DNA from: an uncultured SAR86 cluster bacterium
GTDB lineage: Bacteria; Pseudomonadota; Gammaproteobacteria; Magnimaribacterales; D2472
DNA length: 64,000 bases
NCBI GenBank assembly: GCA_902594515.1
Contig: CACJML010000004.1
Coordinates: 1 to 64,000, forward strand
Direction of reading: 5' to 3'
The notes under the pieces are model-generated. The model searched no databases and was not told where the DNA came from. It was given only the letters and a program-made list of their open reading frames with translations. Position 1 is the stretch's first letter; the number at the start of each line of letters is the position of its first letter. Shown in pieces: positions 3,036 to 40,524 of this stretch. Both the position numbers and the translations under genes were made by a program.

Positions 3036-3615
3036 CGATGTCTTTGTTATCGCATCAAATAACAAAGGTAAAATTGATGAATTTAAAACTCTGCTGTCCC
3101 CAGCCAAAATTATTCCCCAAAGTGAAATAGTCCAGTTAGAGGTTGATGAAACTGGCTCGACTTTTTTTGAAAATGCGCTCCTTAAGGCTAGGGGAGTTGC
3201 TGAATTCACAAATCATAATGTTATAGCGGATGACTCAGGTCTAATAGTGCCTGGCCTTAATAATGAGCCTGGATTAAAGTCTGCAAGATATGCATCTGAT
3301 GATGCTTCAGATGATGAAAATAAAGAAAAACTTAAAAGTGAAATGCGTCGTCTAGGCTTCAAGGAAATGCCAGCCTACTTTGTGTGTGTGCTGGTGATGA
3401 TTGCTTCAAAAGATGATCCTCTTCCGCTGTATGTAGAAGGAAGGTCAAATGGCACAATTAAAACAAAATCAATTGGTGATCAAGGTTTTGGCTATGATGA
3501 TATGTTCTACCCTGATGGCTACAGTGAGTCCTTTGCCTCCATAAATCCCTTAACAAAATTAAGGCTAAGTCATCGAGGAATAGCATTTGCAGCATTAAAA
3601 GACAGATTAAAATAA
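3025..3615 (+). CDS. rdgB: dITP/XTP pyrophosphatase (HAM1/RdgB)
   Basis: Hydrolyses non-canonical purine nucleoside triphosphates (dITP, XTP) to the monophosphate and pyrophosphate, cleaning the nucleotide pool. The 196-residue product carries the family signature at the N-terminus, ASNNKGKIDEFK, the metal-binding ENALLKAR and ADDSGL region, and the C-terminal SHRGIAFAAL. The only start that leaves room for the first beta strand is TTG at 3025, inside the metW 3' end. hemW follows with no gap, and this rdgB-hemW adjacency is common in gammaproteobacteria. Confidence 0.92.
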   Translation: MGPNDVFVIASNNKGKIDEFKTLLSPAKIIPQSEIVQLEVDETGSTFFENALLKARGVAEFTNHNVIADDSGLIVPGLNNEPGLKSARYASDDASDDENKEKLKSEMRRLGFKEMPAYFVCVLVMIASKDDPLPLYVEGRSNGTIKTKSIGDQGFGYDDMFYPDGYSESFASINPLTKLRLSHRGIAFAALKDRLK

Positions 3616-4734
3616 ATGGATAATTTGCCAGAGCTATCGCTGTATGTTCATTTGCCTTGGTGTGATAAAAAATGCCCCTACTGTGACTTTAATATTACAA
3701 CTGATTCTTTAGATGATTCCGTTAAAGAGCTTTTTAATGCGCTTAAAAATGACCTTGGCCAATCCGAGCCGTTAATTAATCAAAGGCCTTTTAAGTCGAT
3801 CTATTTTGGTGGTGGTACGCCATCTAAGGTTCCAACAACCTTTATAAAAGATTTTTTAGATTTCTTACATAGTAAATTTAAGGTTGTTTTGAATTGCGAG
3901 GTAAGTTTTGAAGCAAACCCCATTGATCTCACTTCAGATTATATTGCCGAACTAAAAGATAGTGGCATTAATCGAATGTCTGTTGGGATACAAAGCTTTG
4001 ATGATAAGTACCTTGGCTCTTTGGGAAGAAATCATAATGCGTCTGATTCATTAAAAGCTCTTAGGCTTCTTTCAGAAAGCGAGCTGATTGGAACAATTGA
4101 CTTAATATATGGAGGGCCAAATTCAAATTCACTAACTCTAAAAAATGATCTGGAGATATTCCTTGATGCAGGGATAAATCATCTTTCTTTGTACCAACTA
4201 AATATTGAGCCAAATACTATTTTTTATAAAAAAAGACCTCTGCTGCCAGATGAAAATGAAATTGAAAAAGCAGAAATTATTTCTTCAAATCTTTTAGTTA
4301 AAAATGATTTTAGCCAGTATGAAATTTCATCTTGGTCAAAAGAAAATTCAAAATCCATTCATAATCAAAATTACTGGAAGTACGGAGATTATTTAGGAAT
4401 CGGGCCTGGCGCATCCAGCAAAATTTTTAAAGATAATTTTCATCATCGTTTTAGAAAAAGTAATTCTATAAAGAGTTACATCAATGATACAAAACCCATG
4501 CAAATGGAAAAATTAGAGGGTAAAGAACTTGATTTTGATTTAGCTATCAACATTTTAAGAAATAAGTCGGGCATAGATAACAAAAACCTAGCAACCAATC
4601 AAATTAAATTATCTGAGCGCTTTATTAAAAAATATAAAATCGGAGTTGATCTAGGATACTTTCAAAAGAGAAGGCTTGGGACAACTGAGAAAGGGTTTAA
4701 GTTTTTGGATGATGCAGTTTCTTTATTTTCATAG
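3616..4734 (+). CDS. hemW: Radical SAM heme chaperone HemW
   Basis: A 372-residue radical SAM protein of the HemN/HemW family. The cluster motif is LPWCDKKCPYCDFN with Cys16, Cys20 and Cys23, followed by YFGGGTPS, the GIQSFDDKYL segment and a C-terminal HemN domain. It has the length and cysteine spacing of HemW, a heme-binding protein that delivers heme to membrane targets, rather than of true oxygen-independent coproporphyrinogen oxidase HemN, which is longer. Annotation as a coproporphyrinogen oxidase would therefore be a misnomer. It converges on trmB with a 6-base overlap of the 3' ends. Confidence 0.9.
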   Translation: MDNLPELSLYVHLPWCDKKCPYCDFNITTDSLDDSVKELFNALKNDLGQSEPLINQRPFKSIYFGGGTPSKVPTTFIKDFLDFLHSKFKVVLNCEVSFEANPIDLTSDYIAELKDSGINRMSVGIQSFDDKYLGSLGRNHNASDSLKALRLLSESELIGTIDLIYGGPNSNSLTLKNDLEIFLDAGINHLSLYQLNIEPNTIFYKKRPLLPDENEIEKAEIISSNLLVKNDFSQYEISSWSKENSKSIHNQNYWKYGDYLGIGPGASSKIFKDNFHHRFRKSNSIKSYINDTKPMQMEKLEGKELDFDLAINILRNKSGIDNKNLATNQIKLSERFIKKYKIGVDLGYFQKRRLGTTEKGFKFLDDAVSLFS

Positions 4735-32236: not shown

Positions 32237-33076
32237 TTAGTTATGTTGAATAAATAAAGTAGGAACATTATGCACATTGCTTTTAACAGTCATTACAAGT
32301 GTTCCTTCTTTAACGCCCTTCTTGATCTGTGTTACATCCACTCCATGCGATATTAATCTTTTTCGTGCTGCCTCGATATCCTTAACATTCCAAGCCAACC
32401 CCCAAAGAATGTCTTTTGGTTCATTGTCATTTTGTTCTTCTATTACCTCAATGGTTGTTTTGTTTAATCTAAAGAAAAGCATGCGCTTTTGCCAATGCTC
32501 TACGAATTTATCTAATGCAAGCCTGATGTTGAATATATCTCTATAAGTTTTAATAAAGCCTTCTGCATCGTTGGTACTTATAACAACATGATCTAATCGG
32601 TGAACTGATGAATCTGCATATTTTTTAGCCTTAGCCAGTTTGCCTCCGGTATGCTCAATGATGAATGAGAATAATCCCCTTGAAAGCTCTGGCACTAAGA
32701 ATTGATTTATCCAAGTTCTCTTTTCTCCCGTTTCGAAGTTTGTGCCTTCGCCTAGAGATGCATCAGCCAAGTTAATTGAATTTTTCTGCATGATGTTCCT
32801 AAATTGATTCATGTCCGAAGTTCCGAAGACAATACCGTTTAGTCCCTCGCCGCTGTTTGCAAGCATGTGCTTAATAAGGTCAGCACCAACCCCTTCACCA
32901 CCAGCAGCGAGTAATTCAAGGTAGGTGTTTTGGAAATTAAAAAGGGTGTTTTTGGTCCCAAATTCTTTATGCTCCCCCTTCCAAACAGGAGGGTTGCCAA
33001 GGATCATTTCATAACTTTTTGATGCTTCATCTAGATCTTCAACTGCAATAATTACATGATCAACTGAATCTAACAT
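32237..33076 (-). CDS. Glyoxalase-like (VOC) domain protein
   Basis: A 279-residue protein with two vicinal-oxygen-chelate modules, beginning LDSVDHVIIAVEDLDEASKSY and again at about residue 155 with 'VHRLDHVVISTNDAEGFIKTY'. This resembles the 'glyoxalase-like' PF13468 group rather than canonical glyoxalase I. Substrate unknown. I chose ATG 33076 because the longer frame starts with TTG inside the preceding gene. It is the last gene of the leftward block DUF5665-PepSY-outer-membrane protein-VOC, separated by ten bases. Confidence 0.75.
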   Translation of the reverse strand: MLDSVDHVIIAVEDLDEASKSYEMILGNPPVWKGEHKEFGTKNTLFNFQNTYLELLAAGGEGVGADLIKHMLANSGEGLNGIVFGTSDMNQFRNIMQKNSINLADASLGEGTNFETGEKRTWINQFLVPELSRGLFSFIIEHTGGKLAKAKKYADSSVHRLDHVVISTNDAEGFIKTYRDIFNIRLALDKFVEHWQKRMLFFRLNKTTIEVIEEQNDNEPKDILWGLAWNVKDIEAARKRLISHGVDVTQIKKGVKEGTLVMTVKSNVHNVPTLFIQHN

Positions 33077-33086
33077 CGAAAGGGGT

Positions 33087-34205
33087 TTATAGATTTTTTT
33101 GATAACCAAAAATAACTTTGTAATCTGTTTTCATCTGCAGGTTATTTTTGTCCTGATCAATTGGAAAGATGACTTCTAAACCGAACCTATGATTGTCGCT
33201 TGAAAATATTGAAGTGAGCAGGTTAACCCCAAAAGCAAAGTAAACATTAAGACCACCATAATTTCTCGGATCTGCAGTTTGTACTGGCGCAGATATTAAG
33301 ATGTTTCTTCCCGAAATTTTATCTTGATGTATTGTGTTTAACCTCGATGATATTGACACAGATTTGCTTAGGGGCATTTGTACCCATGAGTTAAATTCTG
33401 CCTTATCTCCAAAAGCCCAGACTTTGTCATTAATAACAGTTTTGTTCCTAATCTGGTTACCCCAAACCATGCCGTTTTTAAATGTTCTGACATTGGTTAG
33501 TCCTAATATCACTGATGTTGCATCATCACCAGGCTGCATCCCATAAGGCAATATCATATCCATCCTTTGGTTCATTGGGGTTAGCACTATGTCCTTTGAG
33601 GTATTTTCTCCAATTGACTGCTGAAGGCCTGTTTCTAGATGCCACCTTGAACTCATGCTTTGGTTAAATCTATAAAGCAGGCTTACAGATAAGTCAGATA
33701 AATCACTTGATGAGGTTTTAAACTTTCCAATGAAGTCCCTGTTCATCATTGGCTTAAATGTTTTTAGGTCCATGCTTTTAGACATGTACATGGCCATGGC
33801 CATTAAAGTTATATTTTCGGATGGGGAGTACATTCCTCCCAACATGGTCATTTGCATGTTCATTTCTTTGGGCACCACAGACAGATTTGCCGGCATGTTT
33901 GAAACGGAGTTTGGCAAATTTATGATTGCCTGTTCTCTAATATCTTTTCCATCGAGCAGGTTGCCATTCATATTCATATATTCTTGCCTCAAAGAGAGCA
34001 TGAATCTACTGTGATGCATGTCTCCCATTATTCCAATGGGTGCATGATCAGAAGCGCTCATCATTTTATGATGATGCATGTGTTGGTGTGCCATTTTCTT
34101 TTCTTCAGATAACTTGCTGAGCAATGGCTCACACATTTCGCAAACCGAATAAGTGCCAACACTCATGAGCAATATGGCCAAAAGTAAATATTTTTTTCTA
34201 ATCAT
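33087..34205 (-). CDS. Outer-membrane beta-barrel protein of the copper-cluster 'transporter' family
   Basis: A 372-residue exported protein with a signal peptide and then a His/Met-rich stretch (about 40-66: MAHQHMHHHKMM and GIMGDMHHSRF). The alternating barrel strands contain 'ENITLMAMAMYMSKSM', 'ISAPVQTADPRNYGG' and a final 'DYKVIFGYQKNL' ending without a terminal aromatic. This matches a family I know from copper-resistance gene neighbourhoods ('MGDHMHxxGEW...SYRYM'); the family name is from memory. The metal link is inferred from composition and the PepSY and MerC neighbours. ATG 34205 follows GAGGTGA. Confidence 0.72.
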   Translation of the reverse strand: MIRKKYLLLAILLMSVGTYSVCEMCEPLLSKLSEEKKMAHQHMHHHKMMSASDHAPIGIMGDMHHSRFMLSLRQEYMNMNGNLLDGKDIREQAIINLPNSVSNMPANLSVVPKEMNMQMTMLGGMYSPSENITLMAMAMYMSKSMDLKTFKPMMNRDFIGKFKTSSSDLSDLSVSLLYRFNQSMSSRWHLETGLQQSIGENTSKDIVLTPMNQRMDMILPYGMQPGDDATSVILGLTNVRTFKNGMVWGNQIRNKTVINDKVWAFGDKAEFNSWVQMPLSKSVSISSRLNTIHQDKISGRNILISAPVQTADPRNYGGLNVYFAFGVNLLTSIFSSDNHRFGLEVIFPIDQDKNNLQMKTDYKVIFGYQKNL

Positions 34206-34214
34206 CAATTCACC

Positions 34215-34757
34215 TCATGTTCGTCGATTAAAAAATAAAATTATGCCTGATAGGGATGTAAAAAGTGCAATGAAGGAAAAAACTTTTAGCCATAAATTAT
34301 CTATATTATCTCTTTCCCACCAGTCCATTATGTGGATGCCCCACATGAAATCCCAGATACGCCACTGCAGAGATCTTATGGCGCTTACCTCACCTGAAAA
34401 TGGATCTATATACACATTTATTTTTTTACCCTTTTCATTTTCAGAAATTACTTTGTACAGCGGCAAATTGCGTCCCCTAAATTCAGAGCCACGAACTTCT
34501 TCATCGATCAACAGGGATTGAATTGGGATGAGGGTAGTTTTAAGGGAGACTATTTTCTTTGCCTCTTCTGAACTGAGCATTTTAGTTTGTTCTTTTTGAT
34601 TGGGGCTGAGGTCTTTATTCTCTATCCTGTATTGCTCGCCACGTACGTTTTCTATTTTATTGAATGAGAAATAAATTCCTGAGATGGTCCAAAGCAAAAG
34701 CTGAATCGAAACAATAAAACTAATGTATTTATGAAACTTCCTTAAAGTAACTTTCAT
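34215..34757 (-). CDS. PepSY-associated transmembrane domain protein
   Basis: A 180-residue inner-membrane protein with an N-terminal helix 'FHKYISFIVSIQLLLWTISG' (the H-K/R-Y-x-x-F start typical of PepSY-TM proteins), a periplasmic PepSY-like region containing 'KINVYIDPFSGEVSAIRSL', then WRIWDFMWGIHIMDWWERDN and a final helix to the C-terminus. Relatives accompany iron or copper transport systems. It lies six to ten bases from the outer-membrane protein gene and 15 from DUF5665, so it belongs to the same operon. Confidence 0.82.
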   Translation of the reverse strand: MKVTLRKFHKYISFIVSIQLLLWTISGIYFSFNKIENVRGEQYRIENKDLSPNQKEQTKMLSSEEAKKIVSLKTTLIPIQSLLIDEEVRGSEFRGRNLPLYKVISENEKGKKINVYIDPFSGEVSAIRSLQWRIWDFMWGIHIMDWWERDNIDNLWLKVFSFIALFTSLSGIILFFNRRT

Positions 34758-34772
34758 AGACTAGATTGAGGC

Positions 34773-35036
34773 CTACCCCTTCTTATCAAGCTTTTCAATA
34801 ATCTCAATAACTTGGTGGGCATAATTTCCAAGAATAGGAATAAATTCAATCTGAGCAAGAATTGCTACCAGGATTGAAACCAGCAGTGTGGCGCCAACCA
34901 CTGAGCCCAACCCAATGGCAAGTCCTCGTAGAAGATTGTAATAAATAAACTTAATTGGGCTTTCATGGATCCTCATAAAATTATGATCCTTAAGTTCCTC
35001 TAGGGCGTCTGCTAGTCTTTTTTGATCATCGCTCAT
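34773..35036 (-). CDS. DUF5665-type small membrane protein
   Basis: An 87-residue protein: a charged N-terminus (MSDDQKRLADALEELKDHNF), a conserved region 'YYNLLRGLAIGLGSVVGATLL' and a single long hydrophobic helix with 'SILVAILAQIEFIPILGNY'. This is the pattern of DUF5665. Function unknown. ATG 35036 follows AGAGGTGCTT, a good ribosome binding site; an upstream GTG at 35042 is less likely. It is the first ordinary gene after the Cys-rich leader and the two hairpins at 35080-35192. Confidence 0.72.
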   Translation of the reverse strand: MSDDQKRLADALEELKDHNFMRIHESPIKFIYYNLLRGLAIGLGSVVGATLLVSILVAILAQIEFIPILGNYAHQVIEIIEKLDKKG

Positions 35037-35079
35037 AAGCACCTCTGGTTAGTTCTAATATACTAAACTAATTACTAAA

Positions 35080-35100
35080 CGATTACGCAAACCGTAATCG
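35080..35100 (-). repeat. 8-bp perfect inverted repeat before DUF5665
   Basis: On the minus strand CGATTACG-GTTTG-CGTAATCG forms a perfect 8-bp stem with a 5-base loop, followed by TTTAG. It lies 44 bases before the DUF5665 start and after the Cys-rich peptide gene. It could be a short terminator, an attenuator arm or a protein-binding site; the following U-run is too short to call it a strong terminator. Confidence 0.55.
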
Positions 35101-35114
35101 GTCTTGTAAAACAA

Positions 35115-35192
35115 ACAAAGAAGTAGTGCGCATAAGAGTGTTGGTCTAATTTATGACCAATACCTTCTTTTAGATACTACTTACTACTTTGT
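35115..35192 (-). promoter_or_regulatory. Putative attenuator: long helix overlapping the leader peptide end
   Basis: On the minus strand the end of the Cys-rich frame, ACAAAG (35192-35187), and AAGTAGT (35182-35176) are both complementary to a contiguous downstream arm, ACTACTTCTTTGT (35127-35115). This gives 13 base pairs with one 4-base bulge that contains the stop codon. An inner hairpin TTGGTC/GACCAA lies in the loop, and the 3' arm is followed by TTGTTTTA. A helix closing on the last codons of a peptide and leading into a U-rich run is the layout of a translation-coupled terminator. Predicted by eye only; no energy was computed. Confidence 0.45.
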
Positions 35193-35231
35193 GCAACAAG
35201 TGCACTCGCAGCAACTACAACAATCACACAT
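35184..35231 (-). CDS. Cysteine-rich leader peptide (15 aa, 8 Cys)
   Basis: The frame encodes MCDCCSCCECTCCTK and then TAG; 8 of 15 residues are cysteine, arranged as repeated CC pairs with single spacers. A TATAAT sits six bases before the ATG, with TTGCGA 18 bases further up, so transcription would begin at or next to the ATG and the peptide would be read from a leaderless message. The stop lies in a helix that leads into a U-rich run. Such a composition is very unlikely in random AT-rich DNA. It may act as a cysteine or metal sensor for the operon behind it, or be a tiny metal-binding peptide. No known family is recognised. Confidence 0.55.
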   Translation of the reverse strand: MCDCCSCCECTCCTK

Positions 35232-35237
35232 CTATAA

Positions 35238-35267
35238 ATTATAGATTAAATAAAGAATATTTCGCAA
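35238..35267 (-). promoter_or_regulatory. Promoter for the Cys-rich leader and metal-related operon
   Basis: On the minus strand TTGCGA (35267-35262), an 18-base spacer and a perfect TATAAT (35243-35238). The A of the leader-peptide ATG is seven bases after the -10 box, the usual distance to the start of transcription. Consensus-type match only, with no experimental support. Confidence 0.6.
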
Positions 35268-35271
35268 TCTG

Positions 35272-35296
35272 TTTGTTGCAGAAGGGCTTTGTTGCA
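35272..35296. repeat. Direct repeat TTTGTTGCA x2 upstream of the leader promoter
   Basis: TTTGTTGCA occurs at 35272-35280 and 35288-35296, a 16-base period, just upstream of the -35 element of the leader promoter and just after the merC stop. Tandem sites in this position commonly bind an activator. The core TTGTTGCA also recurs within the Cys-rich frame, on the other strand, so RNA pairing on a read-through merC transcript is another option. Confidence 0.45.
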
Positions 35297-35299
35297 AAC

Positions 35300-35710
35300 T
35301 TAGGCTAGTTTTTCGTGACAGTCATCGCACTCTAATTTTTTACAGGTCTGAAAGTTTTGGTAATGAGCAAAAACCAACAAAAGAGATCCCAGCAGTGTAA
35401 TGGCTTGCTCACCTAGCTCACCCAATAATCTCTCCCCCATAATTACAGCAGCAACCAATGCAATCATTCCAATGATTGCGGCAGGAAAAAAAGAGGTAGT
35501 CTTATGATTTTTATATCCCGCATATAAAGCGAAGATGCTAACAGGAACAACAATAAATATTAATAGTTTATGAATAAATTCATTATCGATAGTGATGGAT
35601 AAAAATCCTGCTGAAAGAATTACAAAAGACGGTACAAATAGACAATGAATTGCGCAAGCTAAAGAAACGGTGATAGCAAACTTATCTGTACGTTTTTGAG
35701 TTTTTTGCAT
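35300..35710 (-). CDS. MerC-domain membrane protein
   Basis: A 136-residue protein with four membrane helices (about 12-34, 43-62, 72-92, 97-115). The MerC signature is seen at the start, SLACAIHCLFVP (Cys19, His22, Cys23), and two further cysteines end the chain in KLECDDC. MerC proteins import mercuric or other metal ions, but chromosomal MerC-domain proteins without mer genes have less certain roles. No merA, merR or merT is nearby. It reads leftward toward the Cys-rich leader and metal-related operon, with 68 bases between its stop and the leader ATG. Confidence 0.8.
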   Translation of the reverse strand: MQKTQKRTDKFAITVSLACAIHCLFVPSFVILSAGFLSITIDNEFIHKLLIFIVVPVSIFALYAGYKNHKTTSFFPAAIIGMIALVAAVIMGERLLGELGEQAITLLGSLLLVFAHYQNFQTCKKLECDDCHEKLA

Positions 35711-35743
35711 GGCTTATTGTAATACAGTAACAAAAATTTTTAT

Positions 35744-35790
35744 ATGTAACCTTTACTTCCCATTTAAATAATGATAAGTTTACGTTACAT
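35744..35790. promoter_or_regulatory. Divergent region with ATGTAAC/GTTACAT inverted half-sites
   Basis: Between the merC start and the rightward gene at 35808 the sequence ATGTAAC (35744-35750) is repeated in inverted form as GTTACAT (35784-35790), 33 bases apart. Additional GTAAC or TTAC fragments surround them. This could be a paired operator shared by the two divergent genes. Spacing is unusual for a single dimer, so I rate it low. Confidence 0.35.
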
Positions 35791-35807
35791 TTTAAAGAGG
35801 AGATATT

Positions 35808-36200
35808 ATGGATCCAGCAGTAATAGCTATTTTAGGAATATCGGTGGGAATAATAGTTCCTATATCAATTTTTATTTTGCTGTATTTTGAAGCCAAGGAT
35901 AAAAACAAAACGATATTAGAAATATCTAAAAACATAGATGATCCAGCAAAAGTAGAAGACCTATTAAGCATGCTAGATGAGAGAAAAAAAGAGCCGATTG
36001 ATTATCGTAGAGGTGGCTTAATAACACTTTTTGTAGGTGTTGGAATTTACTTATTAGGTGTCTGGGCAATGGGTCAATTCTTTGAAGGTGTTGGTCTCCT
36101 AGTTGGTGCCATAGGAATTGGGACAATGTTGGCAGGATATATGTACCCAAATACAAGCGAAGAAATTACTAATGCGGTTGATGAATATGAAAAGAGATAA
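35808..36200 (+). CDS. Small membrane protein, DUF6249-like
   Basis: A 130-residue protein with an N-terminal helix (about 5-26), a charged cytoplasmic stretch (DKNKTILEISKNIDDPAKVEDLL), then two helices around 'GGLITLFVGVGIYLLGVWAMG' and 'GVGLLVGAIGIGTMLAGYMY', ending EEITNAVDEYEKR. The layout resembles DUF6249 proteins, though I am not sure of the family. Strong ribosome binding site GAGGAG. First of four rightward genes ending with an XRE regulator. Function unknown. Confidence 0.65.
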   Translation: MDPAVIAILGISVGIIVPISIFILLYFEAKDKNKTILEISKNIDDPAKVEDLLSMLDERKKEPIDYRRGGLITLFVGVGIYLLGVWAMGQFFEGVGLLVGAIGIGTMLAGYMYPNTSEEITNAVDEYEKR

Positions 36201-36450
36201 TAAAAAAATTATCAAGGAATTATTTGGCAGTGAATCTGAAATATCCTCACTGTTAGGCGTTGGAGTTGGATTTTTAAACTTTTACTTTCTTTACTCTCTA
36301 TGGGGTATTACTTGGGAGATAAGTTTTGCCATTGCCATTGCCTTGGGATTATTGGTGGGATTTATTCTAGACGAATATTATTTTGAGAGACATAAAAATG
36401 CGGAGGCAAAAAATATTTCAAAAGCAGTCGAGGAATTTGAGAAGAATTAG
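36187..36450 (+). CDS. Small 2TM-domain membrane protein, unknown
   Basis: An 87-residue protein starting MKRDNKKIIKELFGSE (an ATG at 36181 is two codons earlier and equally in frame). Two hydrophobic helices (about 21-37 and 44-60) are followed by a charged tail ending ISKAVEEFEKN. That tail resembles the end of the preceding protein (ITNAVDEYEKR), hinting at a shared partner or shared origin. It overlaps the preceding gene by 14 bases and abuts the next one directly. Confidence 0.62.
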   Translation: MKRDNKKIIKELFGSESEISSLLGVGVGFLNFYFLYSLWGITWEISFAIAIALGLLVGFILDEYYFERHKNAEAKNISKAVEEFEKN

Positions 36451-36894
36451 ATGACCTATTTTAAACGCTTCTTAGTAATTTTTATTTCTGGGACTGTTCA
36501 AGTATTTTTTGCGACCTACTTAATTTTGGAGCTGCTAGGTTTTAGTTTGGGCTGGCACCTTTCGAATCATAATATTATGTTTGTCCCTGGAGTCTTGGTT
36601 TTTTTGGGAGCAGCATATCTAACGCTCTCTTATTATTTCCTTGATACCAAAAAAATTAATAATGCGCTTTATGACGAATTTACTGCTCTCCGAGCCTATA
36701 AGCTTGGTTCAGTAGGTTATGGGCTTAATGGAATGGGAATCTTCGTTCTTTTTTCTATTCAAGACTGGTCAAACTGGAGCTTTCAAATGGCCAATAGCAT
36801 GATTTACCAAATTGCTGCCTTTGCTTGGCTTGTTTTTGGAGTGCTGCTGGTATCTTTTTCTATTGGCGATTATCAGGAATCAAAAAGTGGGTAG
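36451..36894 (+). CDS. Four-helix membrane protein, unknown
   Basis: A 147-residue protein with four predicted helices (about 9-30, 43-62, 91-107 and 119-138), short loops and no motif I know. It starts directly at the stop of the previous gene and its 3' end overlaps the XRE regulator gene by eight bases, so it is part of one tightly packed unit. Membrane protein plus small XRE regulator pairs are common in bacteria and are usually autoregulated. Confidence 0.65.
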   Translation: MTYFKRFLVIFISGTVQVFFATYLILELLGFSLGWHLSNHNIMFVPGVLVFLGAAYLTLSYYFLDTKKINNALYDEFTALRAYKLGSVGYGLNGMGIFVLFSIQDWSNWSFQMANSMIYQIAAFAWLVFGVLLVSFSIGDYQESKSG

Positions 36895-37105
36895 AAGTCA
36901 TGAAAAACTTCTTAATAACTTAGAAGGGCTTAGAAAATCGGCTCGCCTTACGCAACAAGAGCTATCTGAAAGTGCGGAGGTCTCAAGAAAAAGCATTAAT
37001 GCAATTGAGAATGGTATTTATGTGCCTTCAACTGTGCTTGCTTTGAAAATCTCCAAAACTTTGGGTTGCAAGGTAGAAGATATTTTTAAGCTTCCGCAAA
37101 GCTAG
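36887..37105 (+). CDS. Small XRE-family transcriptional regulator (YozG/Cro type)
   Basis: A 72-residue single-domain helix-turn-helix protein. LEGLRKSARLTQQELSESAEVSRKSINAIENG is the XRE fold, followed by 'YVPSTVLALKISKTLGCKVEDIF', the typical end of the YozG/Xre subgroup. I chose GTG 36887 because it gives the normal length and has AGGA upstream; the longer in-frame ATG at 36812 lies deep inside the membrane protein gene. It probably controls the membrane-protein cluster. Confidence 0.8.
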   Translation: MGRSHEKLLNNLEGLRKSARLTQQELSESAEVSRKSINAIENGIYVPSTVLALKISKTLGCKVEDIFKLPQS

Positions 37106-37542
37106 AGTACTGGAGATGAATGGTGGATTTTAATTTTTAAAGAGCCCTCTATTCCAATAAAACAAAAGGTGAAAGCAACCAAAGAGATTGCTTCTGAATT
37201 AAATGGCTTAAACTTGAGGGTTCCCATGGCAGCTAAAAGATTTTCTTCTTCAAGGACTTTAAGCTCATCTAGTTCGATCTGTTCCCATGGCTTTAAAGCA
37301 AATCCATTATCTTCGTTGATATCGCCCTTTACAAAATAAGATAAAGCAAGATCCTTTGTATTCCTAAAAATTACCTCCTTGGTAAAGGTCGGCTTAAAAA
37401 GAACCTCGTCTGTATCAAATGCATAATGTTTAGATACAAATCTCTCGGCACACCTATAATAATCACCCCCATCGAGAAAAACTCTTCCTATCTCTATCAC
37501 GCCCTCTATCCATGAGTTTAAGAAGCTTTTTACCTTTTCCAT
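37102..37542 (-). CDS. NTF2-like (SnoaL-type) protein often mislabelled phosphoribosyl-AMP cyclohydrolase
   Basis: A 146-residue protein with an N-terminal helix 'VKSFLNSWIEGVIEIGRVFL', the segment 'ALSYFVKGDINEDNGFALKPW', then an AMGTLKF strand and the C-terminal KIKIHHSSPVL. The YFV...GFALxPW and final HHSS(L)P pattern is that of a SnoaL-fold family frequently given the wrong name phosphoribosyl-AMP cyclohydrolase. Function unknown. ATG 37542 is used; a GTG three codons earlier is possible. It converges on the XRE gene with a four-base overlap. Confidence 0.65.
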   Translation of the reverse strand: MEKVKSFLNSWIEGVIEIGRVFLDGGDYYRCAERFVSKHYAFDTDEVLFKPTFTKEVIFRNTKDLALSYFVKGDINEDNGFALKPWEQIELDELKVLEEENLLAAMGTLKFKPFNSEAISLVAFTFCFIGIEGSLKIKIHHSSPVL

Positions 37543-37622
37543 ATCGCTCACAGTTATATTTTTAGAAGGCTTAAAAATGATGGTTTTTTGGTTTCATTTT
37601 TCATAGTTAATTAAATCATAAA

Positions 37623-37650
37623 TTTACAGCTAATAATTTTCTTGTATATT
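37623..37650 (+). promoter_or_regulatory. Promoter of the secreted 144-residue protein
   Basis: TTTACA at 37623-37628, a 16-base spacer and TATATT at 37645-37650, followed by an AAAAAAAGG ribosome binding site before ATG 37669. The only clear promoter in this 126-base divergent gap. Confidence 0.5.
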
Positions 37651-37668
37651 AGAAAAAAAGGAAACGCT

Positions 37669-38103
37669 ATGAAAAAAACGCTAGCTATGTTTTTAATATT
37701 TTCTTCGTTTGTTTTTGGGCATAGTGCACAGAAGGGAGACTTTTCAGGAACATGGAGGCTGGTTGAATATGCAGTCAATGACGAGTATCAGGATGTGCCT
37801 AATCCCACTCCCATAAAAATGTATATTAATGGTGAATTCATCATTATCTTTTATTTAGAGGGCAAAATGCATTTCAACAAAGGAATATATGCACTTAAAG
37901 ATGGAATTGTAAATGAAACTATTTTATCTAGTAGCAACGAATCCCTAATTGGCCAGACAGTTTCATTTAAACCAAATTTCATGGGTGATAAAAACTCTTT
38001 TAACTTAAAGATTGATTTTGGTGATAGCACAAATTTTGAGAGATGGGAAAAAACTCACTGTGATGTAATTAAGTGCGCAAAAATTAGAACAAGAAACAAC
38101 TAA
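37669..38103 (+). CDS. Secreted lipocalin-like protein, unknown
   Basis: A 144-residue protein with a signal peptide (MKKTLAMFLIFSSFVFGHSA, cut near residue 20) and a mature part starting 'GDFSGTWRLVEYAVNDEY' with alternating strands and 'FERWEKTHCDVIKCA' at the end (two cysteines, perhaps a disulfide). The 'GTWRLVE' start is typical of small lipocalin-like domains, but I cannot name a family. ATG 37669 has a good ribosome binding site; a TTG nine codons earlier is rejected. Periplasmic location expected. Confidence 0.65.
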   Translation: MKKTLAMFLIFSSFVFGHSAQKGDFSGTWRLVEYAVNDEYQDVPNPTPIKMYINGEFIIIFYLEGKMHFNKGIYALKDGIVNETILSSSNESLIGQTVSFKPNFMGDKNSFNLKIDFGDSTNFERWEKTHCDVIKCAKIRTRNN

Positions 38104-38119
38104 TAAAGTGAGCTTTATT
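38102..38119. terminator. Weak bidirectional hairpin between convergent genes
   Basis: AATAAAG-TGAG-CTTTATT, a 7-bp perfect stem with a 4-base loop, lies at the stop of the 144-residue protein gene and is followed by TATTC. It is low in G/C, so termination efficiency is doubtful. The rest of the 113-base gap to the next gene holds nothing I recognise. Confidence 0.35.
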
Positions 38120-38216
38120 TATTCTATATATTAAATATTCTTTAATTAACTGTTCAATAGTACTTCGCTGATGCATCATAAGTGAGAGTTATGTTATGCC
38201 TTAAGAGAGAAGGATA

Positions 38217-38897
38217 TTAATTAAGAGGATTTCCGTTGAAGTCATACTGCTCAATAATCTCTATGAGGTTTCCATTTTCATACTTTGCTTTTGTCTCTAA
38301 CTGTCCATTTGGGTGGTAGGTTACAGTTATTCCATGTTGAAGTTGATCACTATTATAAGTTTTTAAGAACTCCAACTGCCCAGAGTCGTAATATGAAAAT
38401 TCTTCAAGACTCAAAAGCACATCTTTTTTAAAGTATTCTTTATAAGTAATTAGGCCATATTCATAACTGATCCATTCCCCATCTAACTTATCGTTTACAA
38501 CATTTCCTTCAACAGACAGGAACCCCTCTTCATATCCTTCATATCTACCATTTTCAGAACCATTCTTATATTTTGTTTTATAGGAATAAAACACGCCACA
38601 CGCTTCATATTCTTCATATTGTCCATGCAATAAACCATTCTTATAGCTGCCTGCTTTGTTAACGCAAAATCCATACTCATCATCAAAGCCCATAAATTTG
38701 CCTGAAAATGGCTTTGAAGTGTTGATTTGATATTTTAAGCCTTGTCTTTCAACAAGCGTGGCTTCATTGATTGCGGAATCAGCATACTTTTCAAACAGAG
38801 GCTTCTCTTCGAAGAACTGGCTCAACTGGCTCTTTACAGGAGCATTAAATACAGTGGCAGTTAAAATAATGAGTGTTAGGGAGTAATATCTCTTCAT
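38217..38897 (-). CDS. MORN-repeat (YwqK-like) exported protein
   Basis: A 226-residue protein with a signal peptide (about 1-22) and a series of MORN_2-type repeats of the form Y-x-N/D-G-x-x-x-G-x-x-x-x-Y, for example YKNGLLHGQYEEYE, YKNGSENGRYEGYE and YHPNGQLETKAKYENGN. This is the architecture of YwqK-family 'toxin-antitoxin immunity' annotated proteins, but a signal peptide and lone position point to a periplasmic repeat protein with an unknown partner. No toxin gene is adjacent. Confidence 0.75.
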   Translation of the reverse strand: MKRYYSLTLIILTATVFNAPVKSQLSQFFEEKPLFEKYADSAINEATLVERQGLKYQINTSKPFSGKFMGFDDEYGFCVNKAGSYKNGLLHGQYEEYEACGVFYSYKTKYKNGSENGRYEGYEEGFLSVEGNVVNDKLDGEWISYEYGLITYKEYFKKDVLLSLEEFSYYDSGQLEFLKTYNSDQLQHGITVTYHPNGQLETKAKYENGNLIEIIEQYDFNGNPLN

Positions 38898-38964
38898 TAA
38901 AATATTCTGCCATAGAATTTAATAGAATTCCCCTATTGTAAAATAAAAGTAAAAATGATTGCTG

Positions 38965-39375
38965 CTATCCTTCTTTGTTTGGATTCCAGATCACTAAGTT
39001 TTTAGTTTTAAGTCTGTTTACAACTAACTTGTATCTTGATCGTTCTTCCTTCCATTCTTTTAGCCACTTTTCACCGTCTCTTTCTGCATCAACGAAGATG
39101 GCGTTTGTAAAAGCCAAAGGCAAGATTATTGAAACATGAATAATAATGCTTGCAATTGTATTGTAGTTAAAAAATCCTAGATAATTAGCTGCCAAAAATC
39201 CGAAGAAAACACTCCATATTATAAATAGTACCAGCATGAAATAGGTTTGAAGGCTTGGATCGGGGATATACTTCAGTGGGTTATATCTCACGTCCATTAC
39301 TCTTCTCCAACCACTCACGAGTTTCATTACAAATCTTCTGAAAAGACTAGGTTTTTTCATATTTGGTTTAATCAT
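38965..39375 (-). CDS. Two-helix membrane protein, unknown
   Basis: A 136-residue basic protein. The N-terminus is rich in Arg/Lys (MKKPSLFRRFVMKLVSGWRR) and contains KYIPDP. Two helices (about 45-65 and 74-93) precede a charged tail 'WLKEWKEERSRYKLVVNRL'. No family recognised. The ATG overlaps the last eight bases of a 34-codon frame just upstream (39368-39472), suggesting that both are expressed together. Confidence 0.6.
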   Translation of the reverse strand: MIKPNMKKPSLFRRFVMKLVSGWRRVMDVRYNPLKYIPDPSLQTYFMLVLFIIWSVFFGFLAANYLGFFNYNTIASIIIHVSIILPLAFTNAIFVDAERDGEKWLKEWKEERSRYKLVVNRLKTKNLVIWNPNKEG

Positions 39376-39472
39376 TTTTTTTTCTATTAAATCTTATGAA
39401 CTCTTTAATCACATGCATGCCTACAGTTAACCATGTCACTAAGACTAAACTCCAAAACAATATCTCTATCAT
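39368..39472 (-). CDS. Small single-helix membrane peptide (34 aa)
   Basis: The frame encodes MIEILFWSLVLVTWLTVGMH followed by VIKEFIRFNRKKND. It is one hydrophobic helix with a strongly positive tail, as in genuine small membrane proteins that follow the positive-inside rule. Its TAA overlaps the ATG of the next gene by eight bases. There is no obvious ribosome binding site, so I give it moderate confidence; an alternative overlapping frame looks less protein-like. Confidence 0.45.
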   Translation of the reverse strand: MIEILFWSLVLVTWLTVGMHVIKEFIRFNRKKND

Positions 39473-39537
39473 ATGAATTTAGAATTTTTAATTTCATAAA
39501 AATTGTAACCGAGTATTCTTGCTCAACCCAAAATAAA

Positions 39538-39633
39538 TTAAAGAATAATTTTAAAGAAAAACCAAAAGATTGAGCCCCATATAGCTGCATTAACAAGAAC
39601 CGATCTAATAAAACTTATTACGTGCGATTGCAT
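39538..39633 (-). CDS. Small single-helix membrane peptide (31 aa) with a strong ribosome binding site
   Basis: A 31-codon frame, MQSHVISFIRSVLVNAAIWG then SIFWFFFKIIL, preceded by AGGAGGAATAATCAA, the most consensus-like ribosome binding site in this region. The product is almost entirely one aromatic-rich hydrophobic helix. Small membrane peptides of this kind often bind and regulate a transporter or act as membrane-active toxins; no partner or antitoxin is visible. The 309-base stretch 39376-39684 holds this and the 34-residue frame and nothing else I recognise. Confidence 0.55.
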   Translation of the reverse strand: MQSHVISFIRSVLVNAAIWGSIFWFFFKIIL

Positions 39634-39684
39634 TTGATTATTCCTCCTATGTTAATCTGCCCCATTAAAAAACCTGCAACATTA

Positions 39685-39972
39685 TTAAGTTATCAGCTTG
39701 GGTATTATTCCTAGTTGGGCAAGAATACCAAAGATAATTAACAATATAATGCTGGAGAGTATTCTAAGATTCTTTTTTTGAATCAATTCAAATGAATAAT
39801 CTATAAATTTTCTTATCCATTTATCAGCTTTGTCCATCCATTTAATAGCTTTTCTTGTCCATGTATCAGTAATATCAATTAATAATATAGAAAATGCTGC
39901 GATGATAAGCCACACAAAACCATTAATGGTCATATCTATTAACCAACCTAAAATGACCCAATTTATTTCCAT
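39685..39972 (-). CDS. Small membrane protein, unknown
   Basis: A 95-residue protein with hydrophobic segments at about 5-32 and 72-90 around a charged, Trp- and Lys-rich middle (WTRKAIKWMDKADKWIRK). ATG 39972 is preferred (AGGA upstream) to a TTG one codon before. No family recognised. One of a row of small membrane proteins on this strand. Confidence 0.58.
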   Translation of the reverse strand: MEINWVILGWLIDMTINGFVWLIIAAFSILLIDITDTWTRKAIKWMDKADKWIRKFIDYSFELIQKKNLRILSSIILLIIFGILAQLGIIPKLIT

Positions 39973-40062
39973 CAACAGGTCCTAGAAACTAATCTTTATT
40001 TATTCCGCCATCACTGAGTGTTTTGTTTACAAAAAAATTTCTTATAAAAAATAATATGTTTT

Positions 40063-40455
40063 TTATCCATTTAGTTTATTTCTGTTTTTCGGCAAACATA
40101 ATATTAAAGTGATGATAAATGAAATTATTGAAATTGGCATAGTAAATGCCAAGACATACATGGTTGTCTCAACTAATTCAGTTGCCGTTCCATCAATTAC
40201 ATCATCAAATCTCCATGCCCAACTCCTATAGTGAAGACAGAATGCAAATCCCCAAGCACCGCACAGAATACCTATAGCATTTGAATCCTTGATGGTTAGA
40301 TATCCTGCAGTTATTAGTAAGGCAACTGCGATAAGGTCAGGCAAATATCCAGCAATAGTTTGTCCGAACTTTATCGTAAATAATGTTTCAAGTGTAAAGT
40401 GAACAAGGGCAATAAAAATAGTGAAGATAGAAAATTTATAAAGAAATGCTTTCAT
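40063..40455 (-). CDS. Four-helix membrane protein, unknown
   Basis: A 130-residue protein with helices at about 8-28, 38-54, 60-78 and 95-122. 'GYLTIKDSNAIGILCGAWGFAFCLHYRSWAWRFDD' in the middle contains an HYRSWAWR-like segment and two cysteines. The pattern recalls small uncharacterised marine membrane proteins. Function unknown. A hairpin lies upstream at 40492-40524. Confidence 0.6.
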   Translation of the reverse strand: MKAFLYKFSIFTIFIALVHFTLETLFTIKFGQTIAGYLPDLIAVALLITAGYLTIKDSNAIGILCGAWGFAFCLHYRSWAWRFDDVIDGTATELVETTMYVLAFTMPISIISFIITLILCLPKNRNKLNG

Positions 40456-40491
40456 ATCCTATAGATTAATTCGTCAAACGAAACTACTCCG

Positions 40492-40524
40492 CTGTCACTG
40501 TTCAAACTTACTCTACAGTAACAG
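40492..40524. repeat. 10-bp imperfect hairpin upstream of the 130-residue membrane protein gene
   Basis: CTGTCACTGT at 40492-40501 and ACAGTAACAG at 40515-40524 form a 10-bp stem with one mismatch (G-T type on one strand) and a 13-base loop. It lies between two leftward genes and may be a terminator without a U-run or an operator. A similar CCGCCATCACTGAGTG stretch occurs near 40010, but is not a clean repeat. Confidence 0.35.

Follow-up and report, generated by a model that had tools for sequence, protein, structure and literature searches.

Layout of the locus

The window, a stretch of 64,000 nucleotides from a SAR86 genome (G000; 1.36 Mb, 93% complete), carries a very short cysteine-rich open reading frame on its minus strand. 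A TTGCGA hexamer (35267-35262), 18 spacer nucleotides, a TATAAT element (35243-35238) and six further nucleotides lead to an ATG at 35231. This codon opens the frame MCDCCSCCECTCCTK (35231-35184), which has eight Cys in 15 codons before its stop. The Cys pattern occurs once in the whole 1.36-Mb genome. A MerC gene lies upstream, and genes for a DUF5665 protein, a PepSY_TM protein, a His/Met-rich outer-membrane-like protein and a glyoxalase/VOC protein lie downstream. An earlier sequence-only reading of this DNA had described the same promoter elements, frame and neighbours, and our re-reading agreed with it on each. The features are as follows.

35262..35267, minus strand: -35-like hexamer TTGCGA, read directly; 18 nt from the -10 element; relatives do not conserve the -35 region
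35238..35243, minus strand: -10 element TATAAT, 6 nt before the ATG; the transcript probably starts at the A of the ATG (leaderless)
35184..35231, minus strand: micropeptide ORF MCDCCSCCECTCCTK, 15 aa, 8 Cys; Cys geometry kept in 75 SAR86 loci
35115..35192, minus strand: terminator-like hairpin with its 5' arm over the last two codons, an inner hairpin at 35141-35160 and a T-rich run after it; comparable hairpins in G087, G089, G090 and G091
35300..35710, minus strand: MerC family protein (PF03203), upstream neighbour; usually single-copy, and close to the peptide at 30 of 56 well-flanked loci
34773..35036, minus strand: DUF5665 protein (PF18910), downstream neighbour; next gene here and in G087 only
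34215..34757, minus strand: PepSY_TM protein (PF03929), further downstream; near the peptide in several genera
33087..34208, minus strand: outer-membrane-like protein with a His/Met-rich N-terminus, no Pfam hit; near the peptide in several genera

Conservation of the micropeptide in SAR86

We searched the 203 genomes of the SAR86 order for the Cys frame. A degenerate MCDCCxCCxCxCC pattern matched in 59 of them, and allowing up to three mismatches brought this to 74 genomes, which represent three of the four families and 11 of the 22 genera. The total is 75 loci, because G187 carries the gene twice, as divergent copies on separate contigs (L144 and L145). A reversed control pattern had no match in the 203 order genomes, and MCxCCxCCxC had none in 365 sampled Gammaproteobacteria from outside the order. 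Patterns without an anchor were discarded because their matches were dominated by (TGY)n repeats. The search for the short frame in relatives, which the sequence-only reading had suggested, thus found it strongly conserved.

The SAR86 peptides are 14-19 residues long, and the spacing C-x-CC-x-CC-x-C-x-CC is invariant across the loci. The 51 distinct ORFs retain 406 of 408 Cys codons, with TGT and TGC interchanging. The four linker positions vary (D/E/K/N; S/D/K/N; E/N/Q/K/T; S/T/A/D/N) and every one of the 204 linker codons specifies a polar or small residue. Base composition predicts 42% polar or small codons at these positions and 46% hydrophobic, aromatic or Cys codons. Linker Ser is retained through AGT, AGC and TCT codons. 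A frame search with TATANT-N6-ATGTGYNNNTGY returned 59 places, namely 50 poly-Cys frames and nine unrelated ones. All 50 poly-Cys frames share a single Cys spacing, and in the frame from G109 a stop replaces the last Cys. The single spacing and the polar-only linkers indicate a constraint on the geometry of the peptide that goes beyond a mere count of Cys codons.

The promoter is similarly regular. TATANT stands exactly 6 nt before the ATG at 63 of the 75 peptide loci, as compared with 9 of 625 flanking ORFs of at least 100 aa and none of 64 ORFs in the window. Since this distance is fixed and fits the normal spacing from -10 to +1, the RNA is expected to begin at the A of the ATG. The micropeptide gene thus appears to be leaderless in SAR86, as the sequence-only reading had proposed for the window. 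A TTAGT motif directly before the -10 element (TTAGTTTATAAT) is common at the promoters of the 75 loci; the window has no match to a related pattern, TTWRKTTATANT.

These results bear on whether the frame is a functionless product of chance or low complexity. The ORF is very short, and un-anchored Cys patterns do match (TGY)n repeats. Against a chance origin stand the empty reversed-pattern control in the order, the synonymous variation around nearly invariant Cys codons and the fixed promoter spacing. Conservation already refutes this reading, and we give it next to no weight.

The gene appears to be dispensable, because it was not found in most SAR86 genomes, high-quality ones included (present in 17 of 40). 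Several copies may be decaying: the last Cys codon has become TGA in L171 (G109), the first Cys has become Tyr in L173 (G200), and the ATG has become AAT in L162 (G052).

Copies in marine phages

We scanned 2.9 million viral contigs with the full ATG-anchored 8-Cys motif. The scan returned 24 stretches, one of which is a repeat artefact; the other 23 encode peptides of 13-14 residues with identical 8-Cys geometry, such as MCKCCKCCNCTCCE and MCTCCKCCNCTCC from marine phages. In most of these copies a Shine-Dalgarno-type sequence precedes the ATG, and the phage gene that follows has another in front of it. The copies are flanked by phage genes, for example in a cytidyltransferase cluster or beside the terminase small subunit. 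A looser scan added about 20 contigs that encode related MCxCCxCC forms, most of them preceded by a Shine-Dalgarno site. Among them are forms with another tail, such as MCKCCKCCTCTCPECN (14 contigs) and MCKCCDCCDCGCDC. L197, MCDCCICCNCCC..., MCTCCPCCTCDT... and a few other phage matches were not counted, as they had no Shine-Dalgarno site or were of low complexity.

The SAR86-type sequence MCDCCxCCEC is absent from the viral contig collection, which argues that the phage copies are not stray SAR86 contigs or contamination. The phage and SAR86 peptides may be homologous or convergent, 13 residues being too few to tell. The same Cys geometry in phages, with a different mode of initiation and unrelated neighbours, is the strongest argument that the peptide itself is the functional product. 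In the cultured relatives HTVC008M and Melnitz, the annotated genes at the homologous place leave no room for the peptide. On one IMG/VR contig of 102,910 bases (L178, positions 3577-4359), IscU/NifU-like and A-type Fe-S carrier-like genes follow 8 nt behind the peptide, and a terminase small subunit gene is close by. In L371, the phage micropeptide is followed by a second Cys-rich ORF of about 55 aa (MSSREDEIHKCKCKSCGHENQDMEKCVSTKCVCC...).

Neighbouring genes vary between loci

The sequence-only reading had cast the peptide as a leader dedicated to the operon of DUF5665, PepSY and outer-membrane protein genes. DUF5665 is the next gene only in the window and in G087. Over the 75 loci, the next downstream gene belongs to 33 families: glyoxalase II at 14 loci, NosD-like beta-helix at seven, MerC at six, alpha/beta hydrolase at five, DUF5665 at two, and DoxX, cupin, GFA, SMR, PepSY and others at the remainder. 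This gene is on the same strand at 70 loci and on the opposite strand at five, where it lies 32-134 nt from the peptide. Three of the five are a conserved cyclase-family gene that ends 32-57 nt from the peptide stop. The number of families and the opposite-strand neighbours indicate that a leader role is not general. We also rejected a dedicated DUF5665 leader in general on the basis of L002, L004 and L005, where the peptide lies about 1.1 kb from DUF5665, and of the variation in neighbours between loci. Relatives that share the operon and lack the Cys frame and helix, which would have spoken against the sequence-only reading, did not turn up, because the Cys frame is conserved; what fails is its link to the operon.

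In genus g3, the next gene starts about 12 nt after the stop codon, leaving no room for the proposed attenuator. Some genera have the peptide ORF about 12 nt from the next gene or overlapping it, an arrangement that would suit translational coupling.

The peptide lies in a variable island whose genes are ordered differently from one relative to the next, even among close relatives. At positions 33000-40500 of the window and at loci L107-L156, the island is cassette-like and consists of small genes, most of them on one strand (MerC, SMR, GFA, DoxX, VOC, cupin, cyclase, HXXEE and sulfatase). MerC is near the peptide at 30 of 56 well-flanked loci and is typically single-copy in a genome. We do not count this association as independent evidence for a metal role, because island genes are shared by synteny and ancestry.

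Metal- or thiol-linked neighbours at part of the loci (MerC, GloB, NosD-like beta-helix, GFA), together with the constraint at the peptide level, could be explained if a nascent peptide responded to metal and controlled the gene behind it. CruR, which acts in copper operons, is a DUF2946 protein with a CxxC and an arrest motif and works through Rho (PMC9426467, PMC9973294). The SAR86 peptide resembles CruR/CutF copper uORFs in being a Cys-containing small ORF near metal-related genes; its 14-19 residues hold neither DUF2946 sequence nor a CxxC arrest-type architecture, and MCDCCSCCECTCCTK is quite unlike CruR. Apart from its Cys residues the peptide has no arrest motif, and the gene that it would control varies and may be on the opposite strand. 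In addition, a 15-residue chain barely leaves the ribosome tunnel. We consider control of this type very unlikely.

A terminator-like hairpin in the window genus

A 13-bp helix overlapping the end of the ORF, an inner hairpin and a U-rich tail had been reported for the window, and all three are present as described. The helix pairs ACAAAG (35192-35187) with CTTTGT (35120-35115) and AAGTAGT (35182-35176) with ACTACTT (35127-35121), with a 4-nt bulge. The inner hairpin pairs TTGGTC (35160-35155) with GACCAA (35146-35141), and the T-rich stretch TTTGTTTGTTTT follows the helix. The hairpin scored -14.6 kcal/mol against a mean of -2.0 for shuffled sequences (none of 20 as good) and, in a second scan, -16.4 against a mean of -2.8 (none of ten as good). 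We also ran a permissive scan that allowed a spacer before the T-run, with ten shuffles per locus. All five members of the genus with this locus (G000, G087, G089, G090 and G091) have ORF-overlapping terminator-like hairpins, each with its 5' arm in or beside the last codons and a T-rich run after it. These five loci are among the eleven strongest of 74, and four of them beat all ten shuffles. The hairpin is a real feature of the genus.

Across the order, structure after the ORF showed no excess (median z -0.46). A terminator-like structure beating 95% of shuffles occurred at two of 74 loci, and in the permissive scan seven of 74 beat all ten shuffles, which is about the chance number. Most other genera have no such hairpin, and no RNA structure conserved throughout the order was found. 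The helix proposed for the window thus holds for the genus and does not extend to the order. The covariation suggested as a check gave no significant signal: of the 19 helix pairs in the window, the sister G087 retains 13, with double changes at three, a result within chance expectation (P about 0.15-0.2). Genus g5 (L113, L114, L126, L163-L168 and others) has a small hairpin, ATTGTTGC-TCATAA-GCAACAAT, that covers the stop and the final Cys codons and precedes a glyoxalase II gene. It shows one compensatory change, and 39 of 500 shuffles were as good, so the signal is weak.

The hairpin accompanies the peptide even where a different gene follows, as would be expected if it terminated the peptide's own RNA. 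Attenuation through translation could also operate, because the 5' arm sits under the ribosome at the stop codon. The main alternative to a functional peptide is built on this point. Under it, the frame would be a leaderless poly-Cys leader that attenuates the downstream gene in response to cysteine, with the speed of the ribosome on the Cys codons deciding read-through or translation. Mycobacteria offer the precedent, as their leaderless polycysteine short ORFs mediate cysteine attenuation (Canestrari et al. 2020, as relayed in PMC9031893 and PMC13236596). The SAR86 frames share with these ORFs a leaderless start, a very short length and multiple paired Cys codons (three consecutive CC pairs per frame). 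The hairpins overlapping the ORF in the window genus and in g5, and the same-strand next gene at most loci, would also fit.

Several properties of the SAR86 frames depart from the mycobacterial pattern. Counting codons requires neither an invariant spacing nor polar-only linkers, and the phage copies are internal and Shine-Dalgarno-led. A gene to be controlled is not found directly behind the peptide on the same strand throughout, given the five opposite-strand neighbours, and the 33 downstream families have no sulfur-assimilation theme. Nor is there a conserved structure across the order. The end of a short ORF overlapping a terminator-like hairpin, as seen 5/5 in the window genus, also recalls the trp and his attenuators. 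The SAR86 hairpin differs from these in being conserved no further than a genus or two, in having no constant target gene and in having no established, mutually exclusive antiterminator. We regard cysteine attenuation as unlikely, while ranking it first among the rival readings.

A proposed metallothionein-like role for the peptide

The fixed Cys spacing, the polar-only linkers and the Shine-Dalgarno-led phage copies point to the peptide as the product. It is probably a miniature peptide that itself binds metal, and not a switch for neighbouring genes. On balance, and by a slight preference that rests on sequence comparison, we read it as an independently translated Cys-thiolate micropeptide that is most likely metallothionein-like. 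The gene would be an independent micro-gene on its own short leaderless promoter unit. Its product would be a cytosolic peptide of 14-19 residues with the geometry MC-x-CC-x-CC-x-C-x-CC, whose eight thiolates may wrap a small metal cluster of Cu(I), Zn, Cd or Hg. Such a peptide, if stable, could serve as a minimal metallothionein-like buffer or scavenger. A metal role would suit the variable island where the gene resides together with MerC and other genes of detoxification type. The hairpin at the end of the ORF in the window genus would most simply be the peptide's own terminator, and read-through to the next gene could be modulated. The metallothionein-like and cysteine-attenuation readings are not mutually exclusive in that genus, where the hairpin overlaps the ORF.

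Metallothioneins include very short fungal copper-binding forms of 25 residues. The micropeptide resembles metallothioneins in being very small and Cys-dominated, with CC and CxC motifs, polar linkers and no aromatics in the core. Short length and a composition of at least about 30% Cys with CxC/CC and few aromatics mark metallothioneins as a functional class, and the micropeptide has eight Cys in 13-15 residues, with only D, E, S, K, T, N, A and Q as linker residues. It is about half as long as the 25-residue fungal forms and has one fixed 8-Cys motif. Further differences from metallothioneins are its apparently leaderless expression in SAR86, its presence in phages and the lack of detectable sequence homology. 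Peptides of 13-19 residues are too short for a reliable homology search. When a profile was run against PDB sequences, nothing matched at E 10; this 14-position profile has little power and missed known metallothioneins too. The micropeptide thus resembles metallothioneins in composition and, within a low-power search, matches no described family by sequence.

A translated Cys-rich peptide could also have a role without metal, as a thiol/persulfide or redox carrier, as a helper in Fe-S cluster assembly, or as a partner of a host protein that phages also use. The Fe-S genes behind the peptide in phage L178 and the glutathione-linked island genes (GloB, GFA) are in line with such roles. The Fe-S link appears in one phage context only, and the other phage contexts hold structural or unknown genes. 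We assign these roles together a low probability, below that of cysteine attenuation.

Returning to the metallothionein-like reading, our literature search found nothing linking SAR86 with metallothionein, no description of a phage-encoded Cys-rich metallothionein and no relevant occurrence of the peptide strings; subscription papers were mostly outside its reach, so absence is not proven. More tentatively, and with less than even confidence, we propose that the leaderless SAR86 and Shine-Dalgarno-led phage peptides form an undescribed class of 13-19 residue, 8-Cys micropeptides. Each would form a defined metal-thiolate cluster, and the class would represent a minimal genetically encoded metallothionein of ocean bacteria and viruses. 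If so, the peptide would be unusually small for a metal-thiolate peptide that is genetically encoded, and dominant ocean bacteria and viruses would have a metal or thiol trait in common. If the frame is a cysteine attenuator instead, the leaderless poly-Cys mechanism would extend from mycobacteria to Gammaproteobacteria. SAR86 bacteria are among the most abundant in the surface ocean, with genomes of about 1-1.5 Mb, and the micropeptide gene is shorter than annotation pipelines usually call.
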